Source: Exiguobacterium mexicanum
GTDB lineage: Bacteria > Bacillota > Bacilli > Exiguobacteriales > Exiguobacteriaceae
Reading direction: 5' to 3'
Assembly: GCF_005960665.1 (NCBI RefSeq)
Contig: NZ_CP040676.1
Coordinates: forward strand, 2,080,001 to 2,144,000
DNA: 64,000 nt
The translations under genes and the position numbers were made by a program. The notes under the pieces were generated by a model. It worked only from the letters and a program-made list of their open reading frames with translations. It was not told the DNA's origin and searched no databases. Each line of letters opens with the position of its first letter. Within the stretch, counting starts at the first letter, position 1. This document shows, piece after piece, positions 22,432 to 28,177 of this stretch.

Positions 22432-24477
22432 TCAACTGATGGCTTGTTGTTTACTTTGCAACTCATGCATCCGGGCGTAGACCCCGCCATCAGCGATGAG
22501 TGATTGATGGTTGCCTCGCTCGATGATGTGACCGTGATCGAGGACGAGGATTTGGTCCGCTTCCCGTATCGTCGAGAGACGGTGCGCGATGACGAACGTC
22601 GTCCGCCCGTATGTGAGCGTCTTGAGCGCGTCTTGGATGAGCGCTTCAGTCTCCGAATCGACACTTGCCGTCGCCTCATCTAAGACAAGGATGGCTGGGT
22701 CGAAGACGAGGGCACGGGCGAAACTGATCAACTGGCGCTCTCCGCTCGAGAGCGAGGCGCCGCGTTCGATGACCGGCTCGTCTATTCCGTGTGGCAACTG
22801 TTTGACGAATCGATCGGCTCCGACCGCCGTCAACGCTTGCCAAATCCGGTCGTCCGAGATCGTCTCGTCACCGAGCGTCACGTTCGTTCGAATCGAGCCC
22901 GTGAACAAGAACGGGTCTTGGAGCACGATACCGAGATGGGCACGGACGGCTTGCGTCGGCAGTTTCGTCACGTCCATGCCATCAATGTTGAGCGTTCCTT
23001 CTGACGGGTCATAAAAACGCATGAGCAGGTTCATGATCGAACTCTTGCCGCTGCCCGTATGACCGACGAGCGCCACCGTCTCACCCGGTTCCGCATGGAT
23101 ATCGATGTGTTGAAGCACCGGTTTCCCGGCCTCATAGCTGAACGACACGTCCTCGAAGGCGACCTCGCCTTTAAAGCGTGCAATCCGTTCCGTGGACACG
23201 TCTTCCCCTTTCTCATCGAGCAACTGGAACATCCGGTCTGCCGAGACGAGCGCTTGTTGGAGCGGGGACAGTTGGTTCATGATTTGTGTGACCGGCTCAA
23301 AGATCCGTGACACGTAATCGATATAGGCGTATAAAATCCCGAGCGTGAGCACGCTGCCCGTTCCAAGCGTCTGCGCACCGACGACCCAGATGAGTAAGGC
23401 GAGCGCCATGTTGCGGAAGAAGTTGACCAAGTTGTGCGACATGAGCGCATCCAGTTTGAGCAGTTTCCGTCTCGTTTGGAAGTTGTCGCTGTTTTTCTCG
23501 TTGAACTCGTCATAGACGAGATCTTCTTTGACGTACGACTGAATGATCGGCATCGTCTGGATGCTCTCATTCAATTGGGCGTTCATATCCGCGACGAGGG
23601 CACGGACACGAAAGTTGTTTCGGGTCGACAGGCGTTGGAACAGCTTAATCCAGACGATGACGACCGGGATGATGATGAGCGAGACGAGACCGAGGCGCAC
23701 GTCCAAGAAGAACATGGCGATCAGGACACCAATCATCATGACGACGCTTTGGAAGACGCGTGCGAGCACGCCTAAATATAGGTCGCGAATCGTCTCAGTG
23801 TCATTCGTGACGCGGCTGACGATTTTCCCGATCGGTGTCTGGTCAAAGTAGCGGACCGGAATCGTCTGCAAATGCCGCATGACGTCGAGTCGCATCGTCT
23901 TGACAATCTTATGGGCCGACCGCTGGAGGAGCATCTGTTGCCCCCAGTTCAAACCGGCCGCGATAAGAAGCAAGACGACGTACAAGGCAGATAACATAAG
24001 CACGGCCTGAAGATCCGTCTCATAAAATTGAAACACATCGGTCGAGGAGAGCGGCACGATATTGTCGTACGTCGCTGATTCCTCGCTCCGTGTGATGGTG
24101 AGGACGCCGTCTTCGACTTCACGTACCCCACCACTCATGACAGCGTCTGGGACGAGATAGTATCCGTCCGTCGTCTGAACGATCGAGACAGGTCGGACGA
24201 CGGTCTCTCCGTCGAGCCGTGTCTCTTTTTCATAGGAGTTGCCGTCAAAGTCGACACTCCCGCCTGACTCGACTTGAACCCAATCGCGCTCGATGGCGAC
24301 GATATGGTCGTCGATGATAATTTTGGCGATATACGGTCCGGCTAGTTCGGCCCCGACCGCTAAAAATAGTAAGGTCAAACCGAGGAAAATCGAGTGTCTC
24401 ACTTGTTTGGCATAGCCGACGAGTGAACGGATCGTTTTTTTCCTGCGGACTGGATCTAATTCGTATTGATCGATCAT
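22432..24477 (-). CDS. bmrD: Heterodimeric ABC multidrug exporter subunit, BmrD/YheH type
   Basis: A 681-residue TMD-NBD half-exporter. Its extra domain of about 95 residues between TM1 and TM2 (about 60-160, extracytoplasmic) is the hallmark of YheH/BmrD. The NBD has Walker A GHTGSGKSS and Walker B ILVLDEATASVD with the catalytic glutamate. Its signature motif is altered (LSSGERQ), as in this subfamily. The partner at 24500 has the complementary defect. ATG 24477 follows AAAGGGGGA. Expected role: drug export as a BmrC-BmrD pair. Confidence 0.85.
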   Translation of the reverse strand: MIDQYELDPVRRKKTIRSLVGYAKQVRHSIFLGLTLLFLAVGAELAGPYIAKIIIDDHIVAIERDWVQVESGGSVDFDGNSYEKETRLDGETVVRPVSIVQTTDGYYLVPDAVMSGGVREVEDGVLTITRSEESATYDNIVPLSSTDVFQFYETDLQAVLMLSALYVVLLLIAAGLNWGQQMLLQRSAHKIVKTMRLDVMRHLQTIPVRYFDQTPIGKIVSRVTNDTETIRDLYLGVLARVFQSVVMMIGVLIAMFFLDVRLGLVSLIIIPVVIVWIKLFQRLSTRNNFRVRALVADMNAQLNESIQTMPIIQSYVKEDLVYDEFNEKNSDNFQTRRKLLKLDALMSHNLVNFFRNMALALLIWVVGAQTLGTGSVLTLGILYAYIDYVSRIFEPVTQIMNQLSPLQQALVSADRMFQLLDEKGEDVSTERIARFKGEVAFEDVSFSYEAGKPVLQHIDIHAEPGETVALVGHTGSGKSSIMNLLMRFYDPSEGTLNIDGMDVTKLPTQAVRAHLGIVLQDPFLFTGSIRTNVTLGDETISDDRIWQALTAVGADRFVKQLPHGIDEPVIERGASLSSGERQLISFARALVFDPAILVLDEATASVDSETEALIQDALKTLTYGRTTFVIAHRLSTIREADQILVLDHGHIIERGNHQSLIADGGVYARMHELQSKQQAIS

Positions 24478-24499
24478 GAGAGATTCCCCCTTTCCCGGA

Positions 24500-26224
24500 T
24501 TACTCCGACTCTCCTTGTCGAACGTATTGTTCATAATACCAACCGCGTCGTTCCATCAGTTGGTCGTGCGTGCCCCGCTCTGTGACACGACCGTCTTGTA
24601 ACACGATAATCTGGTCGGCGTGGGCGACAGCGGACAGGCGGTGCGCGACGATGAACGTCGTCTGTTCGGCCCGGCTCGTCCGGACCGAATCGATGATGCG
24701 CGCTTCCGTCTTGGCGTCGACCGCTGAAAGCGAATCGTCGAGCAAGAGGATCTCTGGGTCTTTCAAGAGAGCGCGGGCAATCGAGAGCCGTTGTTTCTGG
24801 CCACCCGAGAGCATGACCCCTTGTTCCCCGACGACCGTGTCGAGACCGTTCTCTAAATGCTCGATATCGGTATCGAACGCCGCAAGTCGAATCGCCGTTT
24901 CAAGGTCTTGTTCCGTCACATCGTTTGAGCCGAACAAGATGTTGTCGCGGACCGTCTTCGAGAACAGCAAGTGTTCTTGCGAGACGTAACCGCTCCAACC
25001 GCGTACCGTATCGAGTTTGATGTCGTGAATCGGGACCCCGTTAACGAGTAGCGAGTCGTCAATCGGATATTCTCGGAGCAATTGACGCAATAGCGTCGTT
25101 TTGCCGGCCCCGGTCGGTCCGACGACCCCAATCGTCTCCCCACGTGACACGTGCAAGACGATGTCTTCGAGCGAGGCACGGGTCGCCCCTGGATATTGGA
25201 ACGACAAGGACTTGAACGTGATTTTCTCCGGGACATCGATGTCGACCGTACCGGTCGAGACGACGTCCGGTGTCTCGTTCATCGTCGCCTCGATTCGTTC
25301 GAGGCTGGCCGTTCCCCGTTGCACGACGTTAATCAGTTCTCCGAACGCGTACATCGGCCAAATGAGCATCCCGAGATAGATGTTGAACGAGACGAGCTGT
25401 CCGAGTGTGATGTCGTTCGTGAACACGAGATACGTGCCGAACGACAAACCGATCAAATAGCTCAAGCCGACAAGCAGTTTAATGACCGGTTCGAACAAGA
25501 CGTCGATTTTCGCGACGTGCATGTTTTTCGCCATCACGTCGTCGGTGATCGTGTCGAATTTCTTCGTGTCCGCCTCTTCTTGGACGAACGAACGGACGAC
25601 CCGAAGGCCTGAAATCGATTCGACGACTTGGTCGTTCATCACGCCGAACGCGTCCTGTGCCGCTGTGAAGCGAGCATGGATTTGGCGTCCGAGCTTATTC
25701 ATCGACCAGGCGAGGAGCGGCATCGGTAGGAGTGCCGCGAGCGTCAACTTCCAATCGATGAACACGCCCATGATTGTGAGGGCGATGAGCGTCATATTGA
25801 ACGAGTCGACGAGCGTCATGACGCCGAACCCGGCCGTCCGTTCCACCGCTTTCAAATCGTTCGTCGCGAGCGCCATCAAATCCCCGGTGCGGTGCTGTTG
25901 ATAGAAGCGCGGTGTCTGCCGGAGCAAGTGGCCGAAGAAACGGGCCCGCAATTTTTTCTCGAGCAGGAACGCCGTCCCAAACAGACGGGCGATCCATACA
26001 TACGAAAGGACGTATGATAAAACCATGATACTGAGCAATGATCCGACGATCATGACGAGACGTTCCGTCGTCAAGCTCCCTTCGCGGATGGCGTCAATCG
26101 CCTGCCCGATAATCCATGGCGGCAGCATATCGACGACGCCGGTGATGATGAGCAGGATGATGGCGACGATATACGTCCGCTTCTGTCTTTTAATAAACCA
26201 ATCTAATTGTTTAATCAGTTTCAT
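24500..26224 (-). CDS. bmrC: Heterodimeric ABC multidrug exporter subunit, BmrC/YheI type
   Basis: A 574-residue half-exporter with six transmembrane helices (to about residue 305). The NBD has Walker A GPTGAGKTT and a canonical signature LSGGQKQRLS. Walker B is ILLLDDSLSAVD, with aspartate in place of the catalytic glutamate: the degenerate site expected for the BmrC side of a heterodimer. ATG 26224 follows GGAAGGGGGA. It lies 22 bases upstream of bmrD and behind a leader peptide and attenuator, so expression is probably induced by translation inhibitors. Confidence 0.85.
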   Translation of the reverse strand: MKLIKQLDWFIKRQKRTYIVAIILLIITGVVDMLPPWIIGQAIDAIREGSLTTERLVMIVGSLLSIMVLSYVLSYVWIARLFGTAFLLEKKLRARFFGHLLRQTPRFYQQHRTGDLMALATNDLKAVERTAGFGVMTLVDSFNMTLIALTIMGVFIDWKLTLAALLPMPLLAWSMNKLGRQIHARFTAAQDAFGVMNDQVVESISGLRVVRSFVQEEADTKKFDTITDDVMAKNMHVAKIDVLFEPVIKLLVGLSYLIGLSFGTYLVFTNDITLGQLVSFNIYLGMLIWPMYAFGELINVVQRGTASLERIEATMNETPDVVSTGTVDIDVPEKITFKSLSFQYPGATRASLEDIVLHVSRGETIGVVGPTGAGKTTLLRQLLREYPIDDSLLVNGVPIHDIKLDTVRGWSGYVSQEHLLFSKTVRDNILFGSNDVTEQDLETAIRLAAFDTDIEHLENGLDTVVGEQGVMLSGGQKQRLSIARALLKDPEILLLDDSLSAVDAKTEARIIDSVRTSRAEQTTFIVAHRLSAVAHADQIIVLQDGRVTERGTHDQLMERRGWYYEQYVRQGESE

Positions 26225-26258
26225 GACTGATTCCCCCTTCCGTCCTTTCCGCGCACGC

Positions 26259-26307
26259 AAAAAAAGCGCACGTCACCTGATTGTGCAACCAATCGGATGA
26301 AGTACGC
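26259..26307 (-). terminator. Attenuator terminator in the bmrCD leader
   Basis: On the minus strand an 18-base stem with two mismatches (arms at 26307-26290 and 26283-26266, loop GTTGCA) is followed by seven Ts. It lies between the leader peptide and bmrC and would stop transcription before the exporter genes unless disrupted. The 5' arm GTACTTCATC is exactly complementary to bases around the leader start codon (26439-26430 on the minus strand), which gives a mutually exclusive antiterminator pairing. Confidence 0.75.
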
Positions 26308-26369
26308 TTCTGAGTCTTCAGTCTTTTGCATGGTCAGGGAAAGGACACTACCCCTATCCAGCTGCCAAA

Positions 26370-26441
26370 TTACGCAGTCAAATACGAGTAGCCATATGAT
26401 GTTGTGTGTGTGCGTTGTAGTGTTGGGATGTACTTCATCAT
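26370..26441 (-). CDS. Leader peptide of the bmrCD operon (BmrB-like)
   Basis: A 23-codon open frame starting MMKYIPTLQR and ending SYLTA, with AGAGGAG five bases before ATG 26441 and a promoter 40 bases further up. It is followed by the attenuator at 26259-26307 and then bmrC. In B. subtilis bmrCD is governed by translation of the bmrB leader with ribosome-mediated attenuation; the arrangement here is the same although this peptide is shorter. The peptide is rich in Thr and Tyr. It probably serves as a sensor of ribosome stalling rather than as a protein. Confidence 0.7.
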   Translation of the reverse strand: MMKYIPTLQRTHTTSYGYSYLTA

Positions 26442-26480
26442 GCTGGCTCCTCTCTGTTCATAGTTTGAAAATCTACTAAA

Positions 26481-26510
26481 ACCTTAGCAGACTGTTCAGA
26501 AAATTGTCAA
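26481..26510 (-). promoter_or_regulatory. Promoter of the leader peptide-bmrCD transcript
   Basis: On the minus strand a perfect -35 TTGACA (26510-26505), an 18-base spacer and TAAGGT (26486-26481) preceded by TGC (extended -10). Confidence 0.65.
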
Positions 26511-26539
26511 TATTATTGTCGTAAATAATTTGTAACTTT

Positions 26540-28177
26540 TTACAAGAAGAATGCAGCGAGCATTAAACCGACAAGACCGGTCGCCGTCACGTAGTAAATC
26601 ATCGGCATGAGCGTATAGCGGATGATCGTTCCTTCTTTCCCAAGAAGACCTGCGACCGAGGCGACCGCGACGACGTTCAAGACACAAATCATGTTACCGG
26701 CGTTGGCTCCTGCCATCTGCATCGATAACGCGAGCGTCTCGTTCAAACCAACGGATTCGGCAACATTCGTCGTCAAACTTGAGAACATCATGTTTGAGAA
26801 CGTGGCCGATCCGGAAACGAAGGCGCCGAGCGCCCCAATCCATGGTGCGACGAGCGGCCAGACACCGCCGAACGTATCGGCTGCAGCCGTGGCGAGTTCG
26901 ACCGGCATCGAAGCCAGGCCAGCTCCACCATTTTCTGAGTGAATGAAGATTCGAACCATCGGCACTGACGCAGCGAGCGTGATGGCCGTCCCGACGACAC
27001 CGAGCGTCGTCGCTTTAAAGACCGAAGTCACTTGTGACCAACTCATGTTGTGGAGGAAGAATGTCGCAATCATCGTCAAGATGAACATGAACCCTGGCGA
27101 ATAGAACGGTTCCCACGACGTCGAGATTCCTTCGACCCCGATGATGTTTGGCAAGTCAATGCGGACGCTACGTGCCAATTCATTCAAGAATGGCACGGTC
27201 CGTGTCAACACGAGGAAAATCGTCAAAATCAAATATGGCGCCCACGCCTTCCACTGCGGAAGTTCACGTTTGCCTTTACCGACAGACGGCTTCTCAAGCG
27301 GCTGCTCGATCTCATCGGCATAACCGTCGAACGTCCACACCCGTTTTGGCATGAGGATCCCTTTGCGTGCCATTGTGACGAGGATGACGAGACCCGTCAA
27401 CCCGCCGAGCATGCCCCCGAATTCAAATCCGAGGATGAGTGTCCAAATGTAGGCCGGGATACTGTAAACGAGTGCTGCGATAATGGCAATCGGGAACACT
27501 TCGAGCGCCGGCTTGATTGACTTCTCTTTGCTGAAGAATCGAGTCAGCATCAAAATCAAGATAAACGGAATCAACAAACCGACGAACATGTCGATGAGTA
27601 CCGTCTGTAAGACGACGCTTGTCAAAAACTCGATCGTTTCCGGTTGATTGACGTCAAGCGACAGCCCGTTCCCAATTCCGATTAAAGCTGGTGTGCCGAC
27701 CGCACCGAACGTGACCGCCGAGACGTCGGCCGATAAAGCGATGACGACCGCTGCAATCGGCGGGAAGCCGAGGGCGATCAAAAGGGGCGCCGCAACCGTA
27801 GCTGGTGTCCCGAAGCCCGAAGCACCTTCGATGAATGAGACGAACAACCAGCCGACAATGAGCACTTGAATCCGGGGATCCGGTGTGATGTTAACGAATC
27901 CAGAGCGAATCGCGTTCATACCGCCGCCCTCTTTCATCGTATTCATCATCCCAATCGCACCGTACACAATCCAGACCGTCGTGACGGCGATCACGAGTCC
28001 TTGTAACGTCGCCGCCATAATCCGTGTCGCATCGAGTTGCCAGACGAAGAACGCCAGTCCTGCCGTCAATACGAGCGAGAGCGGCATCGCGACCGACGCC
28101 GGTAAACGCATAATGACCAATAATACGAGCACTGCCACAATCGGCATGAGTGCTGTAATCCATTCAAAAATCGTCAA
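26540..28177 (-). CDS. lldP: L-lactate permease
   Basis: A 545-residue polytopic protein of the lactate permease family with about thirteen hydrophobic segments. Typical stretches are [20 protein letters not shown] and [12 protein letters not shown]. It carries out lactate:H+ symport (also glycolate) across the cytoplasmic membrane. The start is TTG 28177 with AAAGGTGG seven bases upstream. No lactate-utilisation genes (lutABC or lctE) are adjacent. It stands as a single gene between the bmr promoter region and recX. Confidence 0.9.

Follow-up and report, generated by a model that had tools for sequence, protein, structure and literature searches.

A conserved leader peptide frame and a candidate ribosome-mediated attenuator upstream of bmrC/bmrD-like exporter genes in Exiguobacterium

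Described leader-controlled resistance genes and the Exiguobacterium locus

The closest described system is bmrB-bmrCD of Bacillus subtilis (Reilman et al. 2014, PMC4191407), in which a short translated leader and an intrinsic terminator precede the genes of a BmrC/BmrD-type heterodimeric exporter. As described there, bmrBCD is controlled by bmrB translation, with a predicted terminator, antiterminator and anti-antiterminator; chloramphenicol, erythromycin and lincomycin act as inducers, and kanamycin and gentamicin do not (PMC4191407). In vmlR (Takada et al. 2022, PMC9226507), the leader frame is reported to lie inside the anti-antiterminator, which is broken by a stalled ribosome in favor of the antiterminator. 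Clostridioides cplR and Streptomyces tiaA and are5sc also carry a uORF and a terminator before antibiotic-resistance genes and are induced by ribosome inhibitors, and stalls at the start codon were detected in toeprints of the Streptomyces uORFs (PMC10201436, PMC12421871).

A comparable arrangement is present in the window, i.e., the 64,000-nucleotide stretch of Exiguobacterium mexicanum DNA analyzed here (NZ_CP040676.1, positions 2,080,001 to 2,144,000), where a leader of ~250 bases on the minus strand sits between a lactate-permease-like gene and an ABC exporter gene pair (Table 1). An earlier note on this DNA had remarked that the leader is much shorter than bmrB, and it is indeed 23 codons long against 53. 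It further starts with ATG instead of GTG, has the terminator outside the frame instead of within the coding sequence and, unlike bmrB as described, carries a conserved C-terminal peptide block, while on the bmrB side AbrB control is reported (PMC4191407). Judged by these features, the Exiguobacterium leader is not the bmrB arrangement itself. The vmlR leader differs in its three-codon uORF (MIN), in the ABCF protein encoded downstream and in a hairpin over the vmlR ribosome site, compared with 23 codons and an ABC exporter here (PMC9226507); cplR, tiaA and are5sc likewise differ in having very short uORFs (MRI; MLV, MVGDDDISG) before ABCF genes (PMC10201436, PMC12421871). The kind of switch is already known, and from what the sequences reveal the novelty is in the layout and in the peptide with its conserved C-terminus. 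No account of an Exiguobacterium bmrC leader was found in searches of the open-licence literature, and Exiguobacterium is not mentioned in the accessible text of the bmrB paper (PMC4191407). The comparison suggests that Exiguobacterium, with another peptide and another layout, also uses the leader-peptide control of a BmrCD-type exporter that has been elucidated in one B. subtilis system.

The two exporter halves are adjacent and of the heterodimer type; their best NCBIfam models were SmdA and SmdB, with scores below the cut-offs of these models. At a threshold of E ≤ 1e-170, 174 of 299 Bacilli genomes contain homologues. A second bmrC/bmrD-like pair is encoded in the same genome (L002, L006; C4:1175593-1179067), the first gene of which is 44% identical to bmrC. 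Inspection by eye of the 500 bases before this paralogue (L002) revealed no comparable leader, and a search of the genome for a second leader copy returned, besides the leader itself, seven matches of 14-22 bases (best E 0.02).

Table 1. Positions of the leader features and flanking genes within the window.
Feature	Position	Strand	Basis or remark
Lactate-permease-like gene	26540-28177	−	334 bits with the NCBIfam LctP family model, slightly below its cut-off of 341
−35 hexamer TTGACA	26510-26505	−	sequence; invariant in clade-1 alignment
−10-like TAAGGT, preceded by TG, 18-base spacer from −35	26486-26481	−	sequence
Leader ribosome site GAGAGGAG	26454-26447	−	sequence; invariant in 19/19
Candidate antiterminator, 5' side: AGCCAG (26448-26443) and GAUGAAGUAC (26439-26430)	26430-26448	−	folds, duplex tests
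Leader frame MMKYIPTLQRTHTTSYGYSYLTA, ATG 26441 to TAA 26370, 23 codons + TAA	26370-26441	−	sequence, alignments
Predicted start hairpin, AUGAUG (26441-26436) with CAUCAU (26401-26396)	26396-26441	−	consensus fold; pairs unchanged in 19/19
Segment 1, last leader codons, UACUC.UAUUUG.CUGC	26374-26390	−	15/15 pairs with segment 2 in 19/19
Segment 2, post-stop, GCAG.UGGAUA.GGGUA	26349-26365	−	pairs with segment 1; alternatively with terminator 5' arm
Noncoding block without any change, 42 bases	26325-26366	−	42/42 columns invariant in 19 sequences
Candidate antiterminator, 3' side within terminator: GUACUUCAUC (26305-26296) and UUGGUU (26292-26287)	26287-26305	−	folds, duplex tests
Intrinsic terminator: stem 26309-26264, loop, U tract 26265-26259	26259-26309	−	folds; 18/18 pairs in 19/19
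bmrC-like ABC exporter half, 574 aa, regulated gene	24500-26224	−	
bmrD-like ABC exporter half, 700 aa as listed	22432-24534	−	35-base overlap with bmrC

Conservation of the leader peptide and leader RNA

A protein search yielded 33 loci, 25 of them from Exiguobacterium, and a search of the genus found bmrC in 19/19 genomes. The sequences fall into two clades. Clade 1, the own genus according to the genome classification used, comprises 19 sequences including the window (17 distinct over the aligned stretch; L043, L050 and L056, new species, are among them), with bmrC 91-98% identical to that of the window; clade 2, the sister genus, comprises ten (L021 and the range L024-L032), with bmrC 69-71% identical. 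Nine loci taken as already in the set and six with identical upstream stretches were left out of the counts. In both clades, a leader frame and a terminator occupy the same place before bmrC.

The frame of 23 codons with its ribosome site, which the earlier note had pointed out, was borne out by the sequence and by the clade-1 alignment. Residues 14-23 (TSYGYSYLTA) are identical in all 19 clade-1 sequences; codons 14-23 change only synonymously (codons 19, 21 and 23), and the stop varies between TAA and TGA. Among codons 3-13, by comparison, 10 of 11 change the residue (3-10, 12 and 13; all but 11). The sole gap within the frame is one codon long (seven clade-1 sequences), and a one-base gap comes only after the stop. 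This substitution pattern indicates that the short frame between promoter and regulated gene is selected as a peptide at its C-terminus. Across 398 Bacilli genomes, YGYSYLTA-stop was found in 19, namely once in each of the 19 own-genus genomes, in 0/19 of the sister genus and in 0/360 others. Short and invariant, the peptide offers a directly testable candidate for ribosome stalling.

Sister-genus leaders share the layout before bmrC and differ in an unrelated C-terminus and in their hairpin sequences: they are 21-23 codons long and end in AETLELV, or in TTETLEHV in L030-L032, so that the leader peptides of the two clades have no common C-terminus. Should TSYGYSYLTA act as an arrest sequence, setting it beside the leader of the sister genus would reveal the drugs that each senses and how sensors are exchanged before one pump.

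At the RNA level, the leader (26245-26475) folds more stably than 200/200 shuffles (z = −3.75). The clade-1 consensus fold joins the start codons to codons 14-16, and the end of the leader frame to the bases that follow its stop. The latter, leader-end hairpin retains 15/15 pairs in all 29 sequences of the two genera, with clade 2 using its own hairpin sequence at the same place, and exceeds column shuffles (500) at p = 0.02 in clade 1 and p = 0.002 in clade 2. In clade 1, 14 of the 15 pairs never vary and therefore prove nothing on pairing. In clade 2, two pairs are changed on both sides (four cells); 1/500 shuffles reaches the observed paired cells, both-side-changed cells and covariation score, while the number of both-side-changed pairs is matched by 41/500 and the further pair types by 500/500. 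The invariance of the noncoding block stands against 15 of 207 invariant fourfold sites in bmrC of the same genomes. The block is conserved with its loops included, which is more than the proposed pairings need. Of the leader's ingredients, the earlier note had picked out frame, terminator and complement and missed the invariant C-terminal peptide and the hairpin of the leader end with the post-stop bases.

The proposed terminator, an 18-bp stem with seven Ts, holds throughout clade 1. The stem AAGCGTAC/GTGCGCTT consists of 8, 5 and 5 pairs with two mismatches, and the first two of the Ts are also paired in it. It begins after a 60-base spacer from the leader stop, and 34 bases separate the last T from the start codon of bmrC. 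A simple terminator scan missed the hairpin; termination in the cell would be expected near 26259. In clade 2, a local hairpin was observed just upstream of the terminator.

The promoter had been described as strong, which is overstated. The −35 hexamer is present and the promoter stretch is nearly invariant across 16 aligned clade-1 sequences, but the −10-like hexamer is weak, matching the consensus at 3/6 positions, and a sigma-70 promoter scan called no site at the leader. TTGACA-18-TATTCT was found at the corresponding place in 8/10 sister-genus sequences. Given this promoter, transcription probably starts near 26474. An imperfect dyad, TCTGCTAAGG/TTTTAGTAGA, spans the −10 region (26472-26491); nearly invariant in the clade-1 alignment, it could be an operator.

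Candidate antiterminators and the proposed switch

As a class, ribosome-mediated transcription attenuation by leader translation is the probable explanation; experiment shows this class of control for bmrBCD (PMC4191407) and vmlR (PMC9226507) as described in those papers. During normal translation, ribosomes would cover the leader start, or finish and leave, and the leader would fold on itself; the start hairpin and the pairing of the last codons with post-stop bases would together form an anti-antiterminator. With the leader self-folded, the terminator would form and transcription would stop near 26259. A drug, alone or in concert with the nascent peptide, would presumably halt the ribosome over the conserved C-terminal codons and so block both self-pairings. 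Freed in this way, the stretch from the ribosome-site flank to codon 4 could anneal to the loop and 5' arm of the terminator; with this antiterminator formed, RNA polymerase would read on into bmrC-bmrD. A second ribosome could initiate behind the stalled one and cover the antiterminator, which is a point against this scheme.

Support for the candidate antiterminator, and for its predicted control by ribosome position, comes from folding and partial conservation. The 10-base complement that the earlier note had placed at the start of the leader frame is exact in the window, and the helix exceeds these 10 pairs: next to the ribosome site, AGCCAG can pair with UUGGUU at the terminator top, giving 16. 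In clade 1, the 10-pair helix is complete in eight sequences and keeps 9/10 pairs in four, 8/10 in one, 7/10 in five and 6/10 in one; the AGCCAG:UUGGUU extension is retained in 19/19, so that the extended helix has 16, 15, 14, 13 and 12 pairs in 8, 4, 1, 5 and 1 sequences, respectively. In a duplex test with 300 column shuffles of the 17 distinct rows, covering the ribosome-site flank to codon 12 and using regions picked after seeing the fold, the mean energy of the start region with the 5' arm and loop was −18.7 kcal/mol compared with −11.9 in the shuffles (p = 0.003; weakest sequence p = 0.023). When the loop was excluded, the values were p = 0.027 for the mean and 0.257 for the weakest sequence. 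Sequence by sequence, the start region reached p ≤ 0.02 in 12/19 and 0.12-0.27 in seven.

No pair of the start-region helix is changed on both sides in clade 1, and neither its further pair types nor its covariation score exceeded shuffles. Tested as a set, the clade-2 leader frame alone against the 5' arm alone gave p = 0.87; with the ribosome-site flank, L024 (p = 0.015) and L025 (p = 0.025) stood out, and the other 8/10 lay at 0.10-0.49. The complement is thus lost in part: it is full in 8/19 clade-1 sequences, retains 12-16 of the 16 extended pairs in 19/19 and is weak in the sister genus. Covariation across Exiguobacterium, a check that had been suggested for the two alternative stems, is seen for the leader-end hairpin in clade 2 but not for the antiterminator helix. 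The decay of the 10-base helix in 6/19 sequences would fit a chance complement, a reading that the blocked-footprint folds and the extended-helix test speak against.

Ensemble folding was performed on the RNA up to the terminator loop with a 30-base ribosome footprint blocked. With the ribosome on the start codon, pairing of the start region with the arm was 0.00 in 19/19 clade-1 sequences; with the P site on the third codon ahead of the final one, it was 0.41-0.69 in 19/19. The P site on the last codon gave 0.03-0.32 in 11/19 and 0.59-0.67 in 8/19. In the ribosome-free RNA, these 11 sequences gave ≤0.04; the other eight (the window and seven relatives) gave 0.56-0.58, and for them the antiterminator is already favored in the prediction. 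Codon-by-codon folds of 7/19 sequences, with the RNA cut a few bases elsewhere and values that are indicative only, formed the helix from codon 10 onward in the window, L016, L014 and L050. In L015, pairing exceeded 0.3 (0.31-0.46) only for P-site codons 13-21 of 22, i.e., the conserved block minus its last residue; in L034 it was 0.27-0.51 for codons 10 to 21, and in L019 near 0.2 at best. The cut point matters, as ribosome-free L014 and L050 gave 0.03-0.04 in the first set of folds and 0.23-0.24 in the codon-by-codon folds. In clade 2 with a stalled ribosome, start-region pairing reached 0.24-0.27 for L024 and L025 and lower values for the remaining eight; other upstream bases take the arm.

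The idea of the earlier note that ribosome position on the leader chooses between terminator and antiterminator is thus favored by comparison and folding, but the helix decays in relatives and lacks covariation. In the complete leader at equilibrium, the terminator wins at all ribosome positions (0.95-0.97 in the window), in folds that end at or soon after the U tract, judged on the full results for the window, L014, L029 and L031 and on some of the results for others of the eight sequences folded. With the terminator so dominant at equilibrium, any switching would need to be kinetic, i.e., a matter of timing.

Within the attenuation class, a possible but doubtful version takes as the working antiterminator a duplex of the post-stop segment 2 (GGAUAGGGGUA) and the terminator 5' arm. 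This would be a classical 1:2 / 2:3 / 3:4 attenuator: a ribosome stopping close to the end of the leader frame would cover segment 1 and free segment 2. Such a switch would be independent of re-initiation. Segment 2 and the arm form 11/11 pairs in eight and 10/11 in 11 of the 19 clade-1 sequences, the clade-2 equivalent forms 7/7 in 9/10 (4/7 in L021, with a slipped register by eye), and the duplex with the terminator 5' half is the stronger one in 11/19 of clade 1, at −16.5 to −20.2 compared with −12.3 to −18.7 kcal/mol for the start region. The pairing does not exceed column shuffles, however (p = 0.27 in clade 1, 0.15 in clade 2), is without both-side changes, and reaches at most 0.20 in ensemble folds at any ribosome position tried, where it stays low because segment 2 pairs locally with the following CCUUUCCCUGACC. 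On the blocked-footprint folds and the extended-helix test, we tentatively rank the start-region helix first as candidate antiterminator and the post-stop helix second.

It is improbable that the RNA instead senses a protein or small molecule through the 42-base invariant block, with the leader peptide secondary. All 42 columns are invariant, loops included, beyond what pairing demands; against this, the block joins several alternative pairings that constrain many of its bases, the peptide C-terminus is conserved at the amino-acid level, and the leader matched no Rfam family (no match in the window at gathering score, nor in 26200-26560 at E ≤ 1).

Very improbable is the reading of the hairpin as merely the terminator of the upstream lactate-permease-like gene, with an accidental short frame: the permease frame does end 29 bases before the −35 with no hairpin plus T-run between them by eye, and permease read-through would stop at the hairpin, but the three sister-genus loci inspected (L021, L025 and L031) have a recX-like gene upstream and still keep the leader, its end hairpin and the terminator, and the frame is under peptide selection and placed between promoter and terminator.

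The upstream neighborhood itself is variable. In the window, the order is recX-like gene, permease-like gene, bmrC leader, and in L015 the permease also adjoins the leader; in L021, L025 and L031 the recX-like gene adjoins it (frame read by eye, no family search). Judged from these differing upstream genes, a permease gene is inserted or lost right at the promoter of the putative attenuator.

Possible bmrC leaders in other Bacilli

The comparison was extended to 40 stretches before bmrC homologues in other Bacilli, chosen for variety. In 16/40 of them, bmrC is closely preceded by a short frame with the ending (D/E/N)-(S/G/N)-G-stop, compared with a mean of 0.27 and a maximum of 3 in 200 shuffles, the motif having been defined after seeing the data (L103-L106, L108, L109, L115, L116, L118, L120, L125, L130, L132, L135, L136 and L140). 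These frames end, e.g., in KESLEGG, PESLESG or ELESG, with N-termini that vary as in Exiguobacterium; their stop is TAG in 13/16 and, where the distance was measured by eye, lies ~18-41 bases upstream of bmrC. A terminator-like hairpin is located upstream of the frame in 13/16. Among all outer loci such hairpins were counted in 37/40, an upper figure since some lie inside genes. The frames are possibly a further leader peptide before bmrC, and the accessible text of the papers on bmrB (PMC4191407), vmlR (PMC9226507) and the other uORFs (PMC10201436, PMC12421871) contains no mention of them.

Considering these leaders together, we hypothesize that TSYGYSYLTA is a new drug-dependent or drug-assisted arrest peptide and that bmrC leaders across Bacilli swap C-terminal sensors (TSYGYSYLTA in clade 1, AETLELV in clade 2 and (S)LE(S/G)G in further families) on changing RNA scaffolds, with the sensor of one conserved exporter repeatedly replaced. 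This is put forward tentatively, the balance leaning somewhat against the combined proposal. The sister-genus ETLELV resembles ESLESG, a likeness that may be due to chance. A stretch of L118 likewise resembles CTGGATAGGGGTAG of the invariant block; this similarity was judged by eye to be chance, and its place relative to the terminator differs. A search of 20 of the 40 outer loci against Rfam gave five matches, of which Bacillaceae-1 in L103 was above the gathering score and four were far below.
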